Shown here: in pieces, positions 2,345 through 10,026 of the stretch
Layout: each line of letters starts with the position of its first letter
How positions within the stretch are numbered: position 1 is the stretch's first letter
Assembly: GCA_902543855.1 (NCBI GenBank)
Contig: CACBZW010000003.1
Coordinates: 1-41,034 of the forward strand
DNA: 41,034 nucleotides
Direction of reading: 5' to 3'
Source: an uncultured Alphaproteobacteria bacterium
GTDB lineage: Bacteria > Pseudomonadota > Alphaproteobacteria > HIMB59
The notes under the pieces: generated by a model
Told to the model about the DNA's origin: nothing
The model's database searches: none
The model's input: the letters and a program-made list of their open reading frames with translations, nothing else
Position numbers and translations under genes: made by a program

Positions 2345-3322
2345 ATGTCAATAATCAAAAAATTAGCATTAGTTATTGTTTCACTTTCACTTGTCGCTGT
2401 TAGTTCAGTGTCTTCTGCGAAGCCTTTTAGTCCAAAGAAGCCAGTTGAACTTATTATCCCAGCTGGTCAAGGTGGTGGAGCTGACGAAATTGCTAGATTA
2501 GTTCAAGGTGTTATTGAAAAGAATGACTATGCGTCTAAGCCTGTGATTCCAATTAACAAAGCTGGTGGATCAGGTGGTGAGGCTATGACTTATGTTAAGA
2601 AAAAAGCTGGTGATGAGCACACACTTATCATCACTCTTAACAACGTTCTTACAACACCGGTTAACCAACCAGAATTAGGTATCGACTTCTTCAATGATTT
2701 CACACCTTTAGCAAGACTTATCACTGATACATTCTTAGTTTGGATTGCAACAGAGGGTAAGAACACTGCTGGTGTTGAAACTTTTGATGATTTCATCGAC
2801 CTCGCAAGAGGAAATGGTCTAGTGATGGGTGGTACAGGAAGTATGTCTGAGGACGAATTACTTCTTGGTATGATGAGAGGTCAATTTGGATTTGATGCTA
2901 AGTATGTTCCATACAGCGGCGGTGGTGCTGTTGCAAAGGGACTTGTTGGTGGCGAGTCTGACTTCACATTAAACAACCCTTCAGAGCAAATGGGTTTCTA
3001 TCAATCAGGTGACTCAAAAGCATTAGTTATGATGACTCCTGAGAGAAATCCTGCATTCCCTGAAGTACCATCTTCATATGAATTAGGTTATCCTGATCTT
3101 GAGTACTACATGATGAGAGCATTTATGGCTCCAGCTGGTATTGATGCAGAGGTAGAGAAGTACTACACAGGACTTCTTCACACTGTTTATCATGATAACG
3201 AGTTCCAAACTTTCAACATCGACGACGGAAAGTTAATGAGCTGGTTAGAGGGTTTTGGTCTTAAAGATTTCTTAGCAATCGAATATGCTAAGCACGGTGA
3301 GATCATTAAAAACTTTAACTAA
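2345..3322 (+). CDS. Tripartite tricarboxylate transporter substrate-binding protein (TctC/Bug family)
   Basis: Signal peptide, then KPVELIIPAGQGGGADEIAR and YVPYSGGGAVAKGLVGGESDFTLNNPSE; followed by TctB- and TctA-like genes; AGGAGG SD. Confidence 0.92.
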   Translation: MSIIKKLALVIVSLSLVAVSSVSSAKPFSPKKPVELIIPAGQGGGADEIARLVQGVIEKNDYASKPVIPINKAGGSGGEAMTYVKKKAGDEHTLIITLNNVLTTPVNQPELGIDFFNDFTPLARLITDTFLVWIATEGKNTAGVETFDDFIDLARGNGLVMGGTGSMSEDELLLGMMRGQFGFDAKYVPYSGGGAVAKGLVGGESDFTLNNPSEQMGFYQSGDSKALVMMTPERNPAFPEVPSSYELGYPDLEYYMMRAFMAPAGIDAEVEKYYTGLLHTVYHDNEFQTFNIDDGKLMSWLEGFGLKDFLAIEYAKHGEIIKNFN

Positions 3323-3341: not shown

Positions 3342-3866
3342 ATGAGCATAACAAACAAAATAACTGTCAAAAGAGCAGAAATTGCAGTGGCGGTTATTTT
3401 AGCGTTATGCTCAATCGCTCTGATGATTAAAAGTGCTGAGAATAGAATTACATGGAACGCGGAAGAAAACATGGGTGCGGGATTTCTTCCTTTTTACCTT
3501 TCTCTTGGCATGTTTATTTGTACCGTCCTTACCATAATAAAATTTGTTCTAAAAAGGTCACCACAATCTAAAGATGACTCTCCTTTTATTGATGCTGAAG
3601 CATTCAAATATATTGCAGTAACAATTATTTCATTAGTTATTTTAGTTTTAGCAATAGGCTACTTGGGAATTTACTTTTCACTTATCTTTTTTTTAGCTTT
3701 TTATCTTAGATATTTTAGTTCTAAAAGTGTCCTATTTATATCTGTATTTTCTTTAATCACACCAGTTTTAACCTTTTTATTTTTTGAATGGCTTTTAAAA
3801 ATACCTTTACCTCAAGGTATTTCAGAGCCCTTATTTTATCCAGTATACGATTTTATGTATTCATAA
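3342..3866 (+). CDS. Tripartite tricarboxylate transporter small membrane subunit (TctB family)
   Basis: 174 aa, about 4 TM segments, located between TctC and TctA. Confidence 0.88.
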   Translation: MSITNKITVKRAEIAVAVILALCSIALMIKSAENRITWNAEENMGAGFLPFYLSLGMFICTVLTIIKFVLKRSPQSKDDSPFIDAEAFKYIAVTIISLVILVLAIGYLGIYFSLIFFLAFYLRYFSSKSVLFISVFSLITPVLTFLFFEWLLKIPLPQGISEPLFYPVYDFMYS

Positions 3867-3894: not shown

Positions 3895-5418
3895 ATGGAT
3901 GTATTTATACTTCTTTTAGAGGGAATTTTTGTATCCTTTCAACCCTTAAACCTTGGTCTTTTAATATTCGGCTGTCTAATTGGTTTATTCGTGGGTGCAA
4001 TGCCTGGTCTTGGTTCAGTTAATGGTGTTGCTATACTTATTCCAATTACATTTATTATACCACCCACTGCAGCAATAATATTTTTAGCAGCTGTCTATTA
4101 CGGTGCTATGTATGGAGGTGCCATAAGTTCAGTTATGCTAGGTATACCTGGAGCTTCAACTGCTGTAGCTACAGTTTTTGATGGAAGACCCTTAGCTGTT
4201 AAAGGAGAAGCTATGACAGCTTTAACTGCAGCAGCAGTCGGCTCTTTCGTTGGTGGTACTGTATCTGTAATTTTATTTACTTTATTTGCACCACCTCTGG
4301 CTGAGGTAGCACTAAGATTTAATGCGCCTGAAACCTTTGCATTAATGGTAATGGCATTTGCGACATTTGTAGGCTTAGGTGGAGATGACGTTCCAAAAAC
4401 TATTTTTTCTATATTAATTGGATTAGCTTTATCAACTATAGGCTTAGATCTAATTACAGGAAAGCCAAGATTAATTTTCTTTAATATCCCTGGATTTCTT
4501 CATGGAATTAATTTCCTTGTACTTGCTATCGGAATTTACGGAATTGGCGAAATGCTTTGGACCCTTGAAGAAACAAAAGGTAAAGTTCAAATGTCAAAAT
4601 TATCAGTCAACATGAAGGAAGTTGGAAGAGCATTTGGCGCTCTTAAAAAAACTATAATGGCAATGAACATTGGTTCTTTTCTAGGTTTCTTTGTAGGAAT
4701 TCTCCCTGCGGCAGGTGCCACACCGGCATCACTTATGTCATATGGAATTACAAAACAATTATCAAAAAATTCAAAAGAATTTGGCTCAGGTGTCCCTGCT
4801 GGAGTTGTTGCTCCAGAATGTGCAAATAATTCTGCTAGCACTGGAAGCATGCTCCCTATGTTAACATTAGGTATTCCAGGGTCACCTACAACTGCTATTT
4901 TACTTGGGGGGATGATTTTATGGGGACTTACACCAGGTCCTCTTTTATTTACTCAAGAGCCCGAGTTTGTTTGGGGCTTAATTGGTAGTCTTTACATTGC
5001 TAACTTCTTTACACTGGTTTTAAATATTGCGTTAATTCCAGCTTTTTTAATGGTATTAAGGATACCATTTGCCATCTTGGCCCCAGTTATTTTTGTTCTT
5101 TGTGTAACAGGCGGTTATGCACCTACACAAAGTCTTCACGACGTATGGTTAATGTTGCTATTCGGTTTTGCAGGATACATTTTGAGAAAATTAGATTACC
5201 CTGTGGCACCAGCTGTTTTATCTATTGTTCTTGGTCCATTAGCTGAAAAAGCCTTAAGACAGTCTCTAATTTTATCTGATGGTAGTATGGGAATATTTTT
5301 TGATATGTCAGAAAAACCTATTGCTGCAATCATAATGTATATTGCAATTGTACTTTTAATTATGCCAGCATTTGGCCCTCTCTATAGAAAATTTTTTAAA
5401 AAAGCACAGACAACTTAA
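3895..5418 (+). CDS. Tripartite tricarboxylate transporter large membrane subunit (TctA family)
   Basis: 507 aa polytopic; GAMPGLGSVNGVAILIPITF, PGASTAVATVFDGRPLA, GFFVGILPAAGATPASLMSYGITKQLSK, LTLGIPGSPTTAILLGGMILWGLTPGP are TctA signatures. Confidence 0.96.
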   Translation: MDVFILLLEGIFVSFQPLNLGLLIFGCLIGLFVGAMPGLGSVNGVAILIPITFIIPPTAAIIFLAAVYYGAMYGGAISSVMLGIPGASTAVATVFDGRPLAVKGEAMTALTAAAVGSFVGGTVSVILFTLFAPPLAEVALRFNAPETFALMVMAFATFVGLGGDDVPKTIFSILIGLALSTIGLDLITGKPRLIFFNIPGFLHGINFLVLAIGIYGIGEMLWTLEETKGKVQMSKLSVNMKEVGRAFGALKKTIMAMNIGSFLGFFVGILPAAGATPASLMSYGITKQLSKNSKEFGSGVPAGVVAPECANNSASTGSMLPMLTLGIPGSPTTAILLGGMILWGLTPGPLLFTQEPEFVWGLIGSLYIANFFTLVLNIALIPAFLMVLRIPFAILAPVIFVLCVTGGYAPTQSLHDVWLMLLFGFAGYILRKLDYPVAPAVLSIVLGPLAEKALRQSLILSDGSMGIFFDMSEKPIAAIIMYIAIVLLIMPAFGPLYRKFFKKAQTT

Positions 5419-6078
5419 ATGATCCAAAAAATAGGACCGGTAAACCTAAAAGGTAAGGTATACGATTCACTAAAAAAATATATTTTGTCACTTAATATAT
5501 ATTTAAAACAAAGTGATTTTCATCTAGATGAAAGACAATTGTCTGAAAAGCTAGGAGTTAGTCGGACACCTATTCGAGAAGCTGTAGCTAAATTAGAGCA
5601 AGAGGGAATTGTTAAAACAGTCCCAAGAAGAGGCGTATTTGTGCACAGAAAATCAAAAAAAGAATTGATTGATATTGTAACTGTATGGGCAGGTCTAGAG
5701 GGTTATGCAGCTCATTTAATTATTGCTAATTCCACCAAAGATGAGATTGAAAGTTTAAATAAGTATTGTCATTACTCAAAAGAGAACGTTTTGTCTGAAC
5801 TTGATAACTACTCAAATGATAATATTAAATTTCATAATCAAATTATGAAATTAACTAAAGTAAAATTAATGGGAGAAATTTTAGAGTCACAGTTAATTCA
5901 TTTACAATACTTGAGGAAAAAATTTGTAATAGAGTCTCATAGAGCTGTGAAATCAATTGATGAACATAATGACATTGTTAGATCTCTTGTCGCAGGTCAG
6001 GGATCAAAAGCAGAAAAACTTCTTAAAAATCACGCACTTACTTTAGTTGATAAGATACAAGAAAGCATTAATTCTTAA
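5419..6078 (+). CDS. GntR family transcriptional regulator, FCD (FadR-type) C-terminal domain
   Basis: N-terminal wHTH LDERQLSEKLGVSRTPIREAVAKLEQEGIVKTVPRRGVFV; FCD-like helical C-terminus. ATG directly follows the TctA stop codon. Confidence 0.95.
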   Translation: MIQKIGPVNLKGKVYDSLKKYILSLNIYLKQSDFHLDERQLSEKLGVSRTPIREAVAKLEQEGIVKTVPRRGVFVHRKSKKELIDIVTVWAGLEGYAAHLIIANSTKDEIESLNKYCHYSKENVLSELDNYSNDNIKFHNQIMKLTKVKLMGEILESQLIHLQYLRKKFVIESHRAVKSIDEHNDIVRSLVAGQGSKAEKLLKNHALTLVDKIQESINS

Positions 6079-6141: not shown

Positions 6142-7818
6142 ATGTCTACAGGATCTAATGAACAAATGATAACTGGCGGGGAGCTGGTTGCTAAAGCTCT
6201 TAAAGCAGAGGGAGTTGAGGTTATTTACACTTTATGTGGGGGACACATTATTGATATTTACAATGGATGTCTAAACGAAGGAATTAAAATTATTGACGTA
6301 CGTCATGAAGAAGTTGCCTCTCATGCAGCTGATGGTTATGCAAGAATGACAGGTAAACCTGGGTGTGCAGTTGTTACTGCTGGACCAGGCACGACACATG
6401 CATTAACAGGAGTAGCAAATGCTTTTAGAGCTGAAATCCCAATGCTTTTAATAGGAGGACAAAGTTCACTCACACAACATAAAATGGGATCTTTACAAGA
6501 TTTACCTCACGTAGACATGATGCAACCAATTACAAAATTTGCAGCAACTGTAATGTCAACCGAGAGATGTGCAGACATGGTATCAATGGCTTTTAGGGAA
6601 ACTAGAAATGGATCTTTTGGTCCATCATTTTTAGAAATTCCAAGAGACATACTTGACTCTTCAATTCCAATGAGCAAAGCCGTCTTACCAGAAGCTGGTA
6701 AATATAGTGCTTCATCAAAAACATTAGCAGACCCAGTAGATGTACAAAAAGCTGCAGACATAATTTCAAATGCAGAGAGACCATGCATACTTTTAGGTCA
6801 ACAGGTTTGGACTTGCCAATCTACGAAAGATGCAATCGACTTTGTTAAAAATATGAATATCCCTGCTTATTTAAATGGTGCAGCAAGAGGTTCAATGCCT
6901 CCTGGAGACCCACATCACTTTCACAGAACAAGAAGAAATGCCTTTACCAAGTCAGATTGTATCATAATTGTTGGAACACCTTTTGATTTTAGAATGGGTT
7001 ACGGTAAAAGATTAAATCCTAACGCAACTGTTATTCAAATTGATATGGACTATAGAACTGTTGGAAAAAATAGAGATATATCACTTGGTTTAGTTGGACA
7101 TATAGGAACAACTCTAAAGGCTATCTCTGAAGCAGGAACAAAAAAAGATCGATCAGATTGGTTTAATGAACTTCGATCTGGAGAAGAGGCAGCTTTAGAA
7201 AAATTGATGCCTACATTTACAACAGATAAATCTCCTATTAGTCCTTATAGAGTAGCTTGGGAACTCAACCAGTTTTTAAATGAAGATACTATATACATAG
7301 GTGATGGAGGAGACGTTGTAACCATAAGTGCTCAAGCAGTTCAACCTAGAATGCCTGGTGCTTGGATGGACCCAGGGCCCCTTGGAACTTTAGGTGTCGG
7401 AGTACCATACGCGCTTGCAGCCAAATTAGCTGCACCTGAAAAAGAAATTCTTTTATATTGTGGTGATGGTGCTTTTTCGATGACCGGAATGGACTTCGAG
7501 GCTTTTGTCAGACACAAAGCACCTGTTTTAACAGTTATTGGTAATAACTCTGCTCAAAACCAGATCAGATTTGGTCAAATTATGAAGTATGGTGAAGATA
7601 AAGGAAATGTTGGAAACATCTTGGGTGATGTTAACTTTGATGAGTTTGCAAAAATCTTTGGTGGTCATGGCGAAGCTGTTAGAGAAGCAAAAGAAATCCA
7701 ACCTGCCCTTCAAAGAGCTAGAGAAGCCGTAAAGTCAGGTATACCTGCAATCGTAAATATTTGGGTGGATAAAGAAGAATTTGCTCCTGGTACAAAAAAC
7801 CAGACTATGTACAAATAA
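6142..7818 (+). CDS. ThDP-dependent enzyme, 2-hydroxyacyl-CoA lyase / acetolactate-synthase-like (ILVBL/HACL-type)
   Basis: 558 aa; GGELVAKALKAEGVEVIYTLCGGHI, RHEEVASHAADGYARMTG (catalytic Glu region), ThDP motif GDGAFSMTGMDFEAFVRHKAPVLTVIGNN. Next to a formyl-CoA-transferase-like gene. Confidence 0.85.
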   Translation: MSTGSNEQMITGGELVAKALKAEGVEVIYTLCGGHIIDIYNGCLNEGIKIIDVRHEEVASHAADGYARMTGKPGCAVVTAGPGTTHALTGVANAFRAEIPMLLIGGQSSLTQHKMGSLQDLPHVDMMQPITKFAATVMSTERCADMVSMAFRETRNGSFGPSFLEIPRDILDSSIPMSKAVLPEAGKYSASSKTLADPVDVQKAADIISNAERPCILLGQQVWTCQSTKDAIDFVKNMNIPAYLNGAARGSMPPGDPHHFHRTRRNAFTKSDCIIIVGTPFDFRMGYGKRLNPNATVIQIDMDYRTVGKNRDISLGLVGHIGTTLKAISEAGTKKDRSDWFNELRSGEEAALEKLMPTFTTDKSPISPYRVAWELNQFLNEDTIYIGDGGDVVTISAQAVQPRMPGAWMDPGPLGTLGVGVPYALAAKLAAPEKEILLYCGDGAFSMTGMDFEAFVRHKAPVLTVIGNNSAQNQIRFGQIMKYGEDKGNVGNILGDVNFDEFAKIFGGHGEAVREAKEIQPALQRAREAVKSGIPAIVNIWVDKEEFAPGTKNQTMYK

Positions 7819-7834: not shown

Positions 7835-9082
7835 ATGGAAGCTTTAAAAGGTGTCAAAATATTAGACATGACACACGTCCAGTCCGGACCAACTTGCACA
7901 CAATTACTAGCTTGGTTTGGTGCAGATGTCGTAAAAGTTGAAAGACCAGGAGTGGGTGATGCTACAAGAGGTCAGCTAAGAGACGTTCCTGATGCAGACA
8001 GTTTGTACTTTACAATGCTAAACTCAAATAAAAGAAGCATAACATTAAACCCAAAGAAACCAGAGGGTTCAAAAATATTTACTAAGTTAATCCAAGAGTG
8101 TGATGTCATGGTAGAAAATTTTGCTCCTGGTGCTTTAGATAGAATGGGCTTTTCATGGGAAAAAATACAAGAAATAAATCCAAGAATGATTTATGCGTCT
8201 GTTAAAGGTTTTGGTCCTGGCAAATATGAAGATTGTAAAGTTTATGAGAATGTTGCTCAGTGCGCAGGTGGATCTGCTTCAACTACAGGTATGCTTGGAG
8301 AAGTTCCTTTAGTCACCGGTGCACAAATAGGAGATAGTGGAACAGGACTACACTTAGCATTGGGTATAGTTACTGCTTTATTCCATAGAGAAAAGTCAGG
8401 AAAGGGACAAAGAGTATCTGCCGCAATGCAAGATGGAGTTTTAAATCTTTGCAGAGTTAAACTTCGTGACCAACAAAGACTTTCAAGAGGGCCTTTAAAA
8501 GAATACTCTCAATTTGGAGAAGACATTCCTTTTGGTGACTCTACGCCTCGCGCAGGTAACGACTCAGGTGGTGGTCAGCCAGGAAGAATTCTAAAATGTA
8601 AAGGTTGGGAAAAGGATCCTAATGCATATACATATTTTATTACCCAGGCGGCTGTTTGGGAAAAAGTATGTGATGTTATTGGTAAACCCGAATGGAAAGA
8701 GGATGAAAATTACTCAACTCCTGCTAAAAGACTACCAAGGTTAAACGAAATATTTGATACAATTGAGTCATGGACAATGACTAAGACTAAATTTGAGGTT
8801 ATGGATATATGTAACCCTTTAGATATACCAGTTGGTCCAATATTATCTCTAAAAGAATTAGCTGAAGATCAAGGCCTGAGAGACACTAATACTATAGTCG
8901 AAGTCGATCACCCTGAACGAGGGAAATATTTGACTGTTGGTAATCCAATTAAGTTATCTGACTCCCCAGCAAAAGTTGAAAGATCTCCACTTCTCGGAGA
9001 GCATACTGATGAGATATTAAAAGAATTTTGTCAGATGAGTGACGATGAAATTAAAGCTGTAAGAGAGGCCGGAGCAGTATAA
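7835..9082 (+). CDS. Class III (CaiB/BaiF, Frc family) CoA transferase, formyl-CoA transferase-like
   Basis: [69 protein letters not shown] are highly Frc-like; AGGAGG SD. Confidence 0.92.
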
Positions 9083-9108: not shown

Positions 9109-10026
9109 ATGAAAATAATTTTAATGGGGCAACAGGCATTTGGAAAAAGTGCTTTAGAAAAATTCCATACAGAAACAGACCATGAAGTAGTAGCGGTATA
9201 TTGTGCACCTGACAAAGAGGGTAAACCAGTCGATCCTGTTAAAGAATACGCTCAAAGTGTTAGTTTGCCTGTTTACCAACCCTCAAATTTTAAAGACCAA
9301 GAGGTACTAGACCAAATTAAGTCTCATGGTGCGGACTTATGTGTCATGGCTTATGTAATAATTTTTGTGCCTGAAGGAGCGAGAGATATTCCTACTCATG
9401 GATCTATTTGTTTTCACCCCTCACTACTTCCACTCCATAGAGGACCAAGTTCAATAAACTGGCCTATAATTGGTGGCTCCACAAAAACAGGTCTTTCAAT
9501 TTTTTATCCAAATGATGGGCTAGATGAGGGTGAAATATTACTTCAAAAAGAAGTTGATATTGGTCCTGATGATACTTTAGGAGATGTTTACTTTAAAAAG
9601 ATATTTCCATTAGGTCTTGAAGCTTGTGTTGAAGCTGCAAATTTAATTGAGTCTGGTAATGCACCAAAGACACCTCAAGATGACTCTAAAGCAACATATG
9701 AGTCTTGGTGTAAAAAAAGTGATGCAAGAATTGATTGGAAAAAACCCGGAAACGAAATTTATAATTTAATAAGGGGTTGCAACCCTCAGCCTGGTGCATG
9801 GGCTGAATTCATGGGTGATGAGTATGTCTTTTATGACACTAAGTTTATTGACGAGCAAAGTGCTGAGCATTTTCCAGGTCAAATCATATCAATTAATGCT
9901 GAAAACGTCAGAATCGCAGTTAAAGGTGGATTTATTGAGGTATCAAGATTTAAATCAGACCAAGGTAAATTATTTGTTAAAGACATGAATACTGCAGTAT
10001 TTACAGAGGGTGATTTATTCTCATAA
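9109..10026 (+). CDS. Formyltransferase-family protein resembling the hydrolase domain of 10-formyltetrahydrofolate dehydrogenase (stand-alone)
   Basis: MKIILMGQQAFGKSAL, HGSICFHPSLLPLHRGPSSINWPIIGG, NDGLDEGEILLQKEVDIGPDDT; C-terminal OB-like region follows. Resembles the ALDH1L1 N-terminal domain more than FMT; the FMT N-x-H signature is C-F-H. Confidence 0.85.
   Translation: MKIILMGQQAFGKSALEKFHTETDHEVVAVYCAPDKEGKPVDPVKEYAQSVSLPVYQPSNFKDQEVLDQIKSHGADLCVMAYVIIFVPEGARDIPTHGSICFHPSLLPLHRGPSSINWPIIGGSTKTGLSIFYPNDGLDEGEILLQKEVDIGPDDTLGDVYFKKIFPLGLEACVEAANLIESGNAPKTPQDDSKATYESWCKKSDARIDWKKPGNEIYNLIRGCNPQPGAWAEFMGDEYVFYDTKFIDEQSAEHFPGQIISINAENVRIAVKGGFIEVSRFKSDQGKLFVKDMNTAVFTEGDLFS

Follow-up and report, generated by a model that had tools for sequence, protein, structure and literature searches.

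The described proteins closest to the one considered here are the N-terminal hydrolase domains of ALDH1L1 and ALDH1L2 (10-formyltetrahydrofolate dehydrogenase, FDH). In FDH, a carrier domain receives, on its 4'-phosphopantetheine thiol, the formyl group that the N-domain takes from 10-formyl-THF (PMC8748788). For the isolated zebrafish N-domain, a first attack by an external thiol, 2-mercaptoethanol, has been proposed (PMC4388273). An analogous transfer from formyl-THF to free CoA was proposed for HypX on the basis of a phosphopantetheine argument, with no direct assay in that work (PMC6802093). The described oxalate pathway consists of Frc, Oxc, and OxlT (PMC12927642). Priming of the Frc cycle is a recognised need in oxalate catabolism, for which E. 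coli uses YfdE with acetyl-CoA (PMC3720670). Current descriptions of oxalotrophy contain no gene connecting the CoA and folate formyl carriers, and our search of the open-access literature found no paper on a formyltransferase in an oxc-frc operon, nor on formyl-CoA-to-folate transfer outside HypX.

The fmtL gene and its operon

The window, i.e., the whole stretch of DNA that was analysed, comprises 41,034 nucleotides from an uncultured alphaproteobacterium of the HIMB59 lineage. The gene of interest, fmtL, lies at 9109..10026 on the forward strand, starts with ATG, and ends with the stop codon at 10024-10026. Its 305-aa product, FmtL, is a stand-alone formyltransferase/hydrolase of the FDH N-domain type. 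Pfam recognises Formyl_trans_N (PF00551) in residues 1-161 (97 bits) and Formyl_trans_C (PF02911) in residues 202-287 (68 bits); each domain exceeds its cut-off. The mrpE gene follows, beginning 9 bases past the fmtL stop, and neither the open reading frames of the window nor Pfam place a carrier or aldehyde dehydrogenase domain between the two; the fusion partner is absent. FmtL therefore differs from ALDH1L1 in lacking both the 4'-phosphopantetheine carrier domain and the C-terminal aldehyde dehydrogenase. The open reading frame, the Pfam domains, and the search for solved relatives together confirm the first-pass annotation, which had described a stand-alone ALDH1L1-domain-1-like protein at this position, followed by mrpE and not by an aldehyde dehydrogenase. 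The motifs HPSLLPLHRGPSSINW and LLQKE are present as it claimed; the one it gave as DDGLDxGE actually reads NDGLDEGE. An apparent fusion in a related locus (L077, a 730-aa open frame) was rejected, the extra frame being an out-of-frame read through frc on a GC-rich contig.

Upstream on the same strand, frc (7835..9082) encodes a 415-aa class III formyl-CoA:oxalate CoA-transferase that scores 693.9 bits against the TIGR03253 cut-off of 504.2 and 540 bits against YfdW (1pqy). It is preceded by a gene (6142..7818) for a ThDP-dependent acyl-CoA lyase/decarboxylase, hereafter the TPP enzyme, nearest to actinobacterial 2-hydroxyacyl-CoA lyase (HACL); many related operons carry a true oxalyl-CoA decarboxylase (Oxc) instead. 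Farther upstream, all on the forward strand, are a GntR/FCD-family regulator conserved with the cassette (5419..6078) and the three components of a tripartite tricarboxylate transporter: the large membrane subunit TctA (3895..5418), conserved nearby in many related loci, the small membrane subunit TctB (3342..3866), and the periplasmic binding protein TctC (2345..3322). Compared with the described oxc-frc operon, the locus shares the Frc equivalog and the GntR regulator, and many related loci share the true Oxc; FmtL, formate-THF ligase, and TctCBA fall outside the described pathway.

The formyl-CoA enzyme pair named by the first-pass annotation is thus clear for the CoA-transferase only, as the TPP enzyme passes no equivalog cut-off (247.6 bits against 739 for TIGR03254, the oxalyl-CoA decarboxylase model, whereas sister operons encode a true Oxc). 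It has Ile at the position of the catalytic Glu493 of AcHACL, a residue that is absent in oxalyl-CoA decarboxylases according to the authors who described it (PMC8760513), and the GIYRG motif of Oxc is absent from it as well. The lyase-like type as a whole conserves NQIR[YF]GQ and has neither the HACL catalytic Glu nor GIYRG. Judged by these residues, it is possibly an unrecognised oxalyl-CoA decarboxylase or a new acyl-CoA lyase. Because the two kinds of operon have similar Frc proteins, the acid handled is most likely oxalate; a small 2-hydroxyacid is possible. Oriented divergently from gntR, a sucC gene (sucCD as annotated in L219) adjoins the oxalate cassette in loci L080, L082, L164, L177, L181, and L219, and occupies positions 1-1188 of the window; its product might be a source of succinyl-CoA priming the CoA-transferase.

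Affinity to FDH N-domains

Among proteins of solved structure, the ALDH1L1 N-domains are the best relatives of FmtL (4qpd, 215 bits, E 1e-62; 1s3i, E 3e-59), ahead of the best Fmt (3tqq, 134 bits, E 6e-38) and ArnA (93 bits, E 2e-25), which bears out the close resemblance originally noted. Identity to 4qpd in the Foldseek alignment is 37% over the whole domain. With an AlphaFold2 model of FmtL built from 39 relatives (mean pLDDT 94), Foldseek ranks FDH N-domains first by E-value, followed by Fmt, ArnA, and HypX. By TM-score alone, Fmt structures come slightly above FDH N-domains (0.91 vs 0.85), so it is sequence and residues, more than the fold, that tie FmtL to FDH. The tree that the first-pass annotation had called for, including Fmt, PurU, PurN, ArnA, and ALDH1L1, was built by a quick maximum-likelihood method. 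It groups FmtL with the ALDH1L1 N-domains (SH-aLRT 98), separately from Fmt and ArnA; in this tree ArnA, PurN, and PurU form long branches, and the exact position of ALDH1L1 inside the group is weakly supported. HypX shares the fold (6j1f, TM 0.67) but just 16% identity; moreover, its fused crotonase-like domain, proposed to split formyl-CoA to CO, is absent in FmtL, the recurrent neighbours of which are oxalate-type genes.

The active site points in the same direction. FmtL residues His103, Ser105, Asp139, and Tyr197 correspond to FDH His106, Ser108, Asp142, and Tyr200, the residues that characterise the ALDH1L1 hydrolase domain, and their equivalents are invariant in an alignment of 113 FmtL relatives. 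The catalytic Arg (Arg111) is also kept. Two residues before the catalytic His, in Cys101-Phe102-His103, FmtL has Cys. This position holds Asn in Fmt, ArnA, PurN, and PurU, and Ile in ALDH1L1. The first-pass annotation had correctly noticed that the Asn of the N-x-H signature is replaced by Cys, that FDH likewise lacks it, and that the His and the later Asp are retained. Across the 113 aligned relatives the residue is Cys in 52 and Gln in 61, never Asn. The choice between Cys and Gln follows linkage to frc, Cys occurring in 47/83 frc-linked members vs 5/30 others; in the window, codon 101 is at 9409-9411, and the Cys could serve as an internal active-site thiol. Of the folate-site residues described for FDH, F89 is found in 80/83 linked members and Y200 in all.

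FmtL falls below the curated cut-offs of the other formyltransferase families: TIGR00460 for Fmt (157.3 vs 201.5 bits), TIGR00655 for PurU (17.8 vs 285.95), TIGR00639 for PurN (45.6 vs 150.1), the ArnA model (119.6 vs 777), and PRK06988. Membership in PurN, PurU, or ArnA is thereby rejected, and the gene context is of the oxalate type, not that of amino-sugar modification. PurU, which uses 10-formyl-THF, has the catalytic His and Asp in common with FmtL but keeps the Asn. With Fmt, FmtL shares the two-domain architecture and the fold (3tqq, TM 0.91), but it lies apart in the tree. The first-pass annotation would have been undermined had fmtL been the only fmt of its genome. This idea was rejected: 16 of the 18 related genomes searched carry a canonical fmt as a separate gene above the TIGR00460 cut-off, and the relatives' own Fmt proteins score 250-279 bits. 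The window's assembly, which is 56% complete, contains from the formyltransferase group fmtL and a PurN-like gene only, the latter separate from fmtL, on another contig (C9), and encoding 181 aa. Judging from the sub-threshold score, the separate Fmt of the relatives, and the missing Asn, FmtL is not the housekeeping Fmt, despite its public annotation as 'Methionyl-tRNA formyltransferase'. The family is common, conserved, and mis-named where annotated.

Conservation of linkage and co-occurrence

In 28 genomes of the window's genus, fmtL comes after frc, and every contig that extends far enough upstream also shows the TPP gene. The three most divergent congeners have lost the mrp neighbour and kept TPP-frc-fmtL together with gntR and tctCBA. 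The conserved unit is therefore the catabolic cassette, and adjacency to mrpE was rejected as a functional link. Searches beyond the genus gave FmtL relatives with 46-59% identity in 30 more genomes of the class, and also in other Proteobacteria.

A set of 80 named loci was retrieved. Of the 120 loci examined, 14 belong to the window's genus, making the independent count lower; in addition, some contigs stop before frc would be visible. In 90 of the 120 loci, from Alphaproteobacteria and some other Proteobacteria, frc is nearby and fmtL lies just downstream of it, with a gap below 250 bp in 86 of the 90 (median 56 bp). Linkage with a CoA-transferase and a TPP enzyme thus extends far beyond the genus, contrary to the absence of conserved linkage that the first-pass annotation had named as grounds for abandoning its proposal. 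The TPP gene of these frc loci is a true oxalyl-CoA decarboxylase in 39 (that of L082 scores 1022 bits to the solved 7ayg) and of the window's lyase-like type in 43. Mapped on the FmtL tree, the two labels require at least 11 and at least 9 changes forced by starred branches, and on a FastTree phylogeny of Frc at least 9. On these trees, Oxc and the lyase-like type appear to have swapped repeatedly in the operon while frc-fmtL remained. Formate-THF ligase is encoded directly downstream of fmtL in 56 loci. The order recurs on the plasmid of a Paracoccaceae isolate, where the genes are annotated oxc, frc, 'Methionyl-tRNA formyltransferase', fhs. In 28 of the 120 loci, frc and a TPP gene are both missing from the neighbourhood; fmtL often sits among housekeeping genes there, and some contigs end early.

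Co-occurrence was assessed in an even sample of 385 genomes across the class. FmtL is present in 34, a close Frc in 35, and both in 28 (Fisher p 3e-30); counted by genus, the figures are 20, 25, and 18 (p 1e-20), kinship inflating the significance in both cases. In some genomes the two genes co-occur even on different contigs or far apart, and a close frc is missing, by the threshold applied, from 6 of the 34 FmtL genomes. Formate-THF ligase is found in 27/30 FmtL genomes vs 16/32 others (p 8e-4); in the window's genus it is present but unlinked to fmtL, and formate dehydrogenase is present too. The search for a purU elsewhere in the genome, another check proposed at the outset, gave no PurU above cut-off in 14 genomes of the genus or in 30 FmtL genomes outside it, compared with 10/32 others (p 9e-4). 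Among genomes bearing formate-THF ligase, PurU occurs in 0/27 with FmtL vs 3/16 (p 0.045, kinship uncorrected). Since genomes with formate-THF ligase have PurU less often, the contrast is largely confounded, and the value of PurU exclusion as proof of hydrolase function is weakened.

Proposed formyl transfer between CoA and folate, and its alternatives

FmtL has an FDH active site, no carrier domain, and recurrent neighbours that handle formyl-CoA and 10-formyl-THF, which is most simply read as CoA taking the place of the carrier. The first-pass annotation had offered either hydrolysis of 10-formyl-THF or transfer between CoA and folate. The adjacency of fmtL to formyl-CoA genes and formate-THF ligase favours transfer, and hydrolysis is left at lower confidence. 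Further support for transfer comes from the constancy of frc-fmtL despite the TPP swap, because formyl-CoA is the Frc intermediate with either TPP type. We therefore propose, with moderate confidence, that in this oxalate-type catabolic operon FmtL acts as a formyl-CoA/tetrahydrofolate formyltransferase; we infer the reaction and CoA as its thiol partner, and transfer may run either way. More tentatively, and with slightly greater doubt than hope, we regard FmtL as the founder of a class of free-standing formyl-CoA:tetrahydrofolate formyltransferases forming a direct, previously unrecognised bridge between oxalate (or 2-hydroxyacid) catabolism and folate in many Proteobacteria, marine lineages included, and annotated as a second Fmt. 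Such transfer is not an entirely new role, as had been suggested, since partial precedents exist in the FDH N-domain (PMC8748788) and in the HypX proposal (PMC6802093). The fold and the chemistry are already known; the free-standing, CoA-linked, operon-embedded form is new.

In the proposed mechanism, the upstream TPP enzyme would produce formyl-CoA and Frc would spend it in activating the next acid. FmtL would bind folate as the FDH N-domain does and shuttle the formyl group between N10 of folate and the free CoA thiol. CoA could stand in for the fused carrier of FDH inasmuch as both end in a 4'-phosphopantetheine arm. The small CoA-bound formyl pool would thus be linked to the folate one-carbon pool. 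Given the energies of thioesters and formyl-folates, formyl transfer to folate should be downhill; the reverse transfer, from folate to CoA, could be pulled by irreversible decarboxylation. Running downhill, FmtL would yield 10-formyl-THF without ATP, and reversed formate-THF ligase could regain ATP. In the uphill direction, working with formate-THF ligase, it would turn formate, at the expense of ATP, into formyl-CoA that primes or replenishes the Frc cycle. It should be noted that the oxc-frc cycle has no net production of formyl-CoA, so that steady transfer to folate would require another CoA donor for oxalate. Formate-THF ligase being unlinked in the window's own genus, the 28 loci without a neighbouring frc or TPP gene, and the 6 FmtL genomes lacking frc also speak against transfer.

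Of the other functions weighed, FmtL could be a 10-formyl-THF hydrolase that replaces PurU, freeing formate and THF when growth on oxalate or a comparable acid leaves folate over-formylated. The FDH N-domain in isolation takes its name from hydrolysis (PMC4388273), and the lack of PurU in FmtL genomes inside and outside the genus would suit such an enzyme. Apart from the confounding of that deficit, with formate-THF ligase right after fmtL in 56 loci, hydrolysis would set up an ATP-wasting futile cycle within a single operon, and the Asn missing in FmtL is kept by PurU and PurN; we consider this function unlikely, though deserving of attention. If FmtL were instead the formyl-CoA hydrolase (EC 3.1.2.10) of oxalate degradation, splitting formyl-CoA straight into formate and CoA, it would account for an activity that has had no gene since 1963 according to a 2023 paper (PMC10192776). 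FmtL is located in the right operon for it, and the FDH N-domain can, by the proposed mechanism, free formate from a thiol-bound intermediate (PMC4388273). Such an enzyme would nevertheless deplete the formyl-CoA required by Frc and leave the formate-THF ligase linkage unexplained, and the retention of F89 and Y200 suggests that folate binding is under selection, all of which makes it rather improbable.

It is highly improbable, in our opinion, that FmtL uses 10-formyl-THF to formylate another acceptor (an amine, tRNA, or a pathway metabolite). The fold common to FmtL, Fmt, and ArnA and the Fmt-like C-terminal domain would fit this role, but FmtL misses the cut-offs of Fmt, ArnA, PurN, and PRK06988, the N-x-H Asn is missing in every member, relatives carry a separate canonical Fmt, and no amino-sugar genes adjoin fmtL in annotated loci. 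The loci in which fmtL sits amid housekeeping genes could also mean that its linkage is incidental and FmtL a spare Fmt paralogue retained by operon inertia. This is already disfavoured, and we give it hardly any credence, given the repeated re-pairing with two TPP families, the co-occurrence of FmtL and frc even where unlinked, and the divergent congeners that lost the mrp neighbour yet kept TPP-frc-fmtL.

If formyl transfer between CoA and folate is indeed the function of FmtL, biosynthesis would be able to draw one-carbon units from oxalate without spending the ATP that formate-THF ligase consumes; conversely, the formyl-CoA that starts oxalate breakdown would be made from formate via folate. 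The FDH N-domain fold would then exist as a bacterial enzyme using free CoA instead of a fused carrier domain. FmtL would also offer formyl-CoA-based designs for synthetic formate assimilation a natural exit to folate.

Several minor observations concern variants of the cassette. Two loci from Candidatus Thioglobus and TMED61 metagenome-assembled genomes (MAGs; L182 and L183) have the order tctCBA-TPP-fmtL, with frc missing from the operon. An acid-activating ligase substituting for frc there was considered and rejected, because the neighbouring genes encode an isocitrate dehydrogenase kinase/phosphatase (586 aa) and an amidase (472 aa). In L120 (8749-9609), L127 (4228-5103), and L219 (9677-10540), the product of the gene after formate-THF ligase is a universal stress family protein of some 287 aa and not the FolD that might be expected in that position. 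The cassette is also present in SAR324 and Gemmatimonadota (Longimicrobiales) MAGs (L136 and L175), which suggests horizontal transfer or misbinning.
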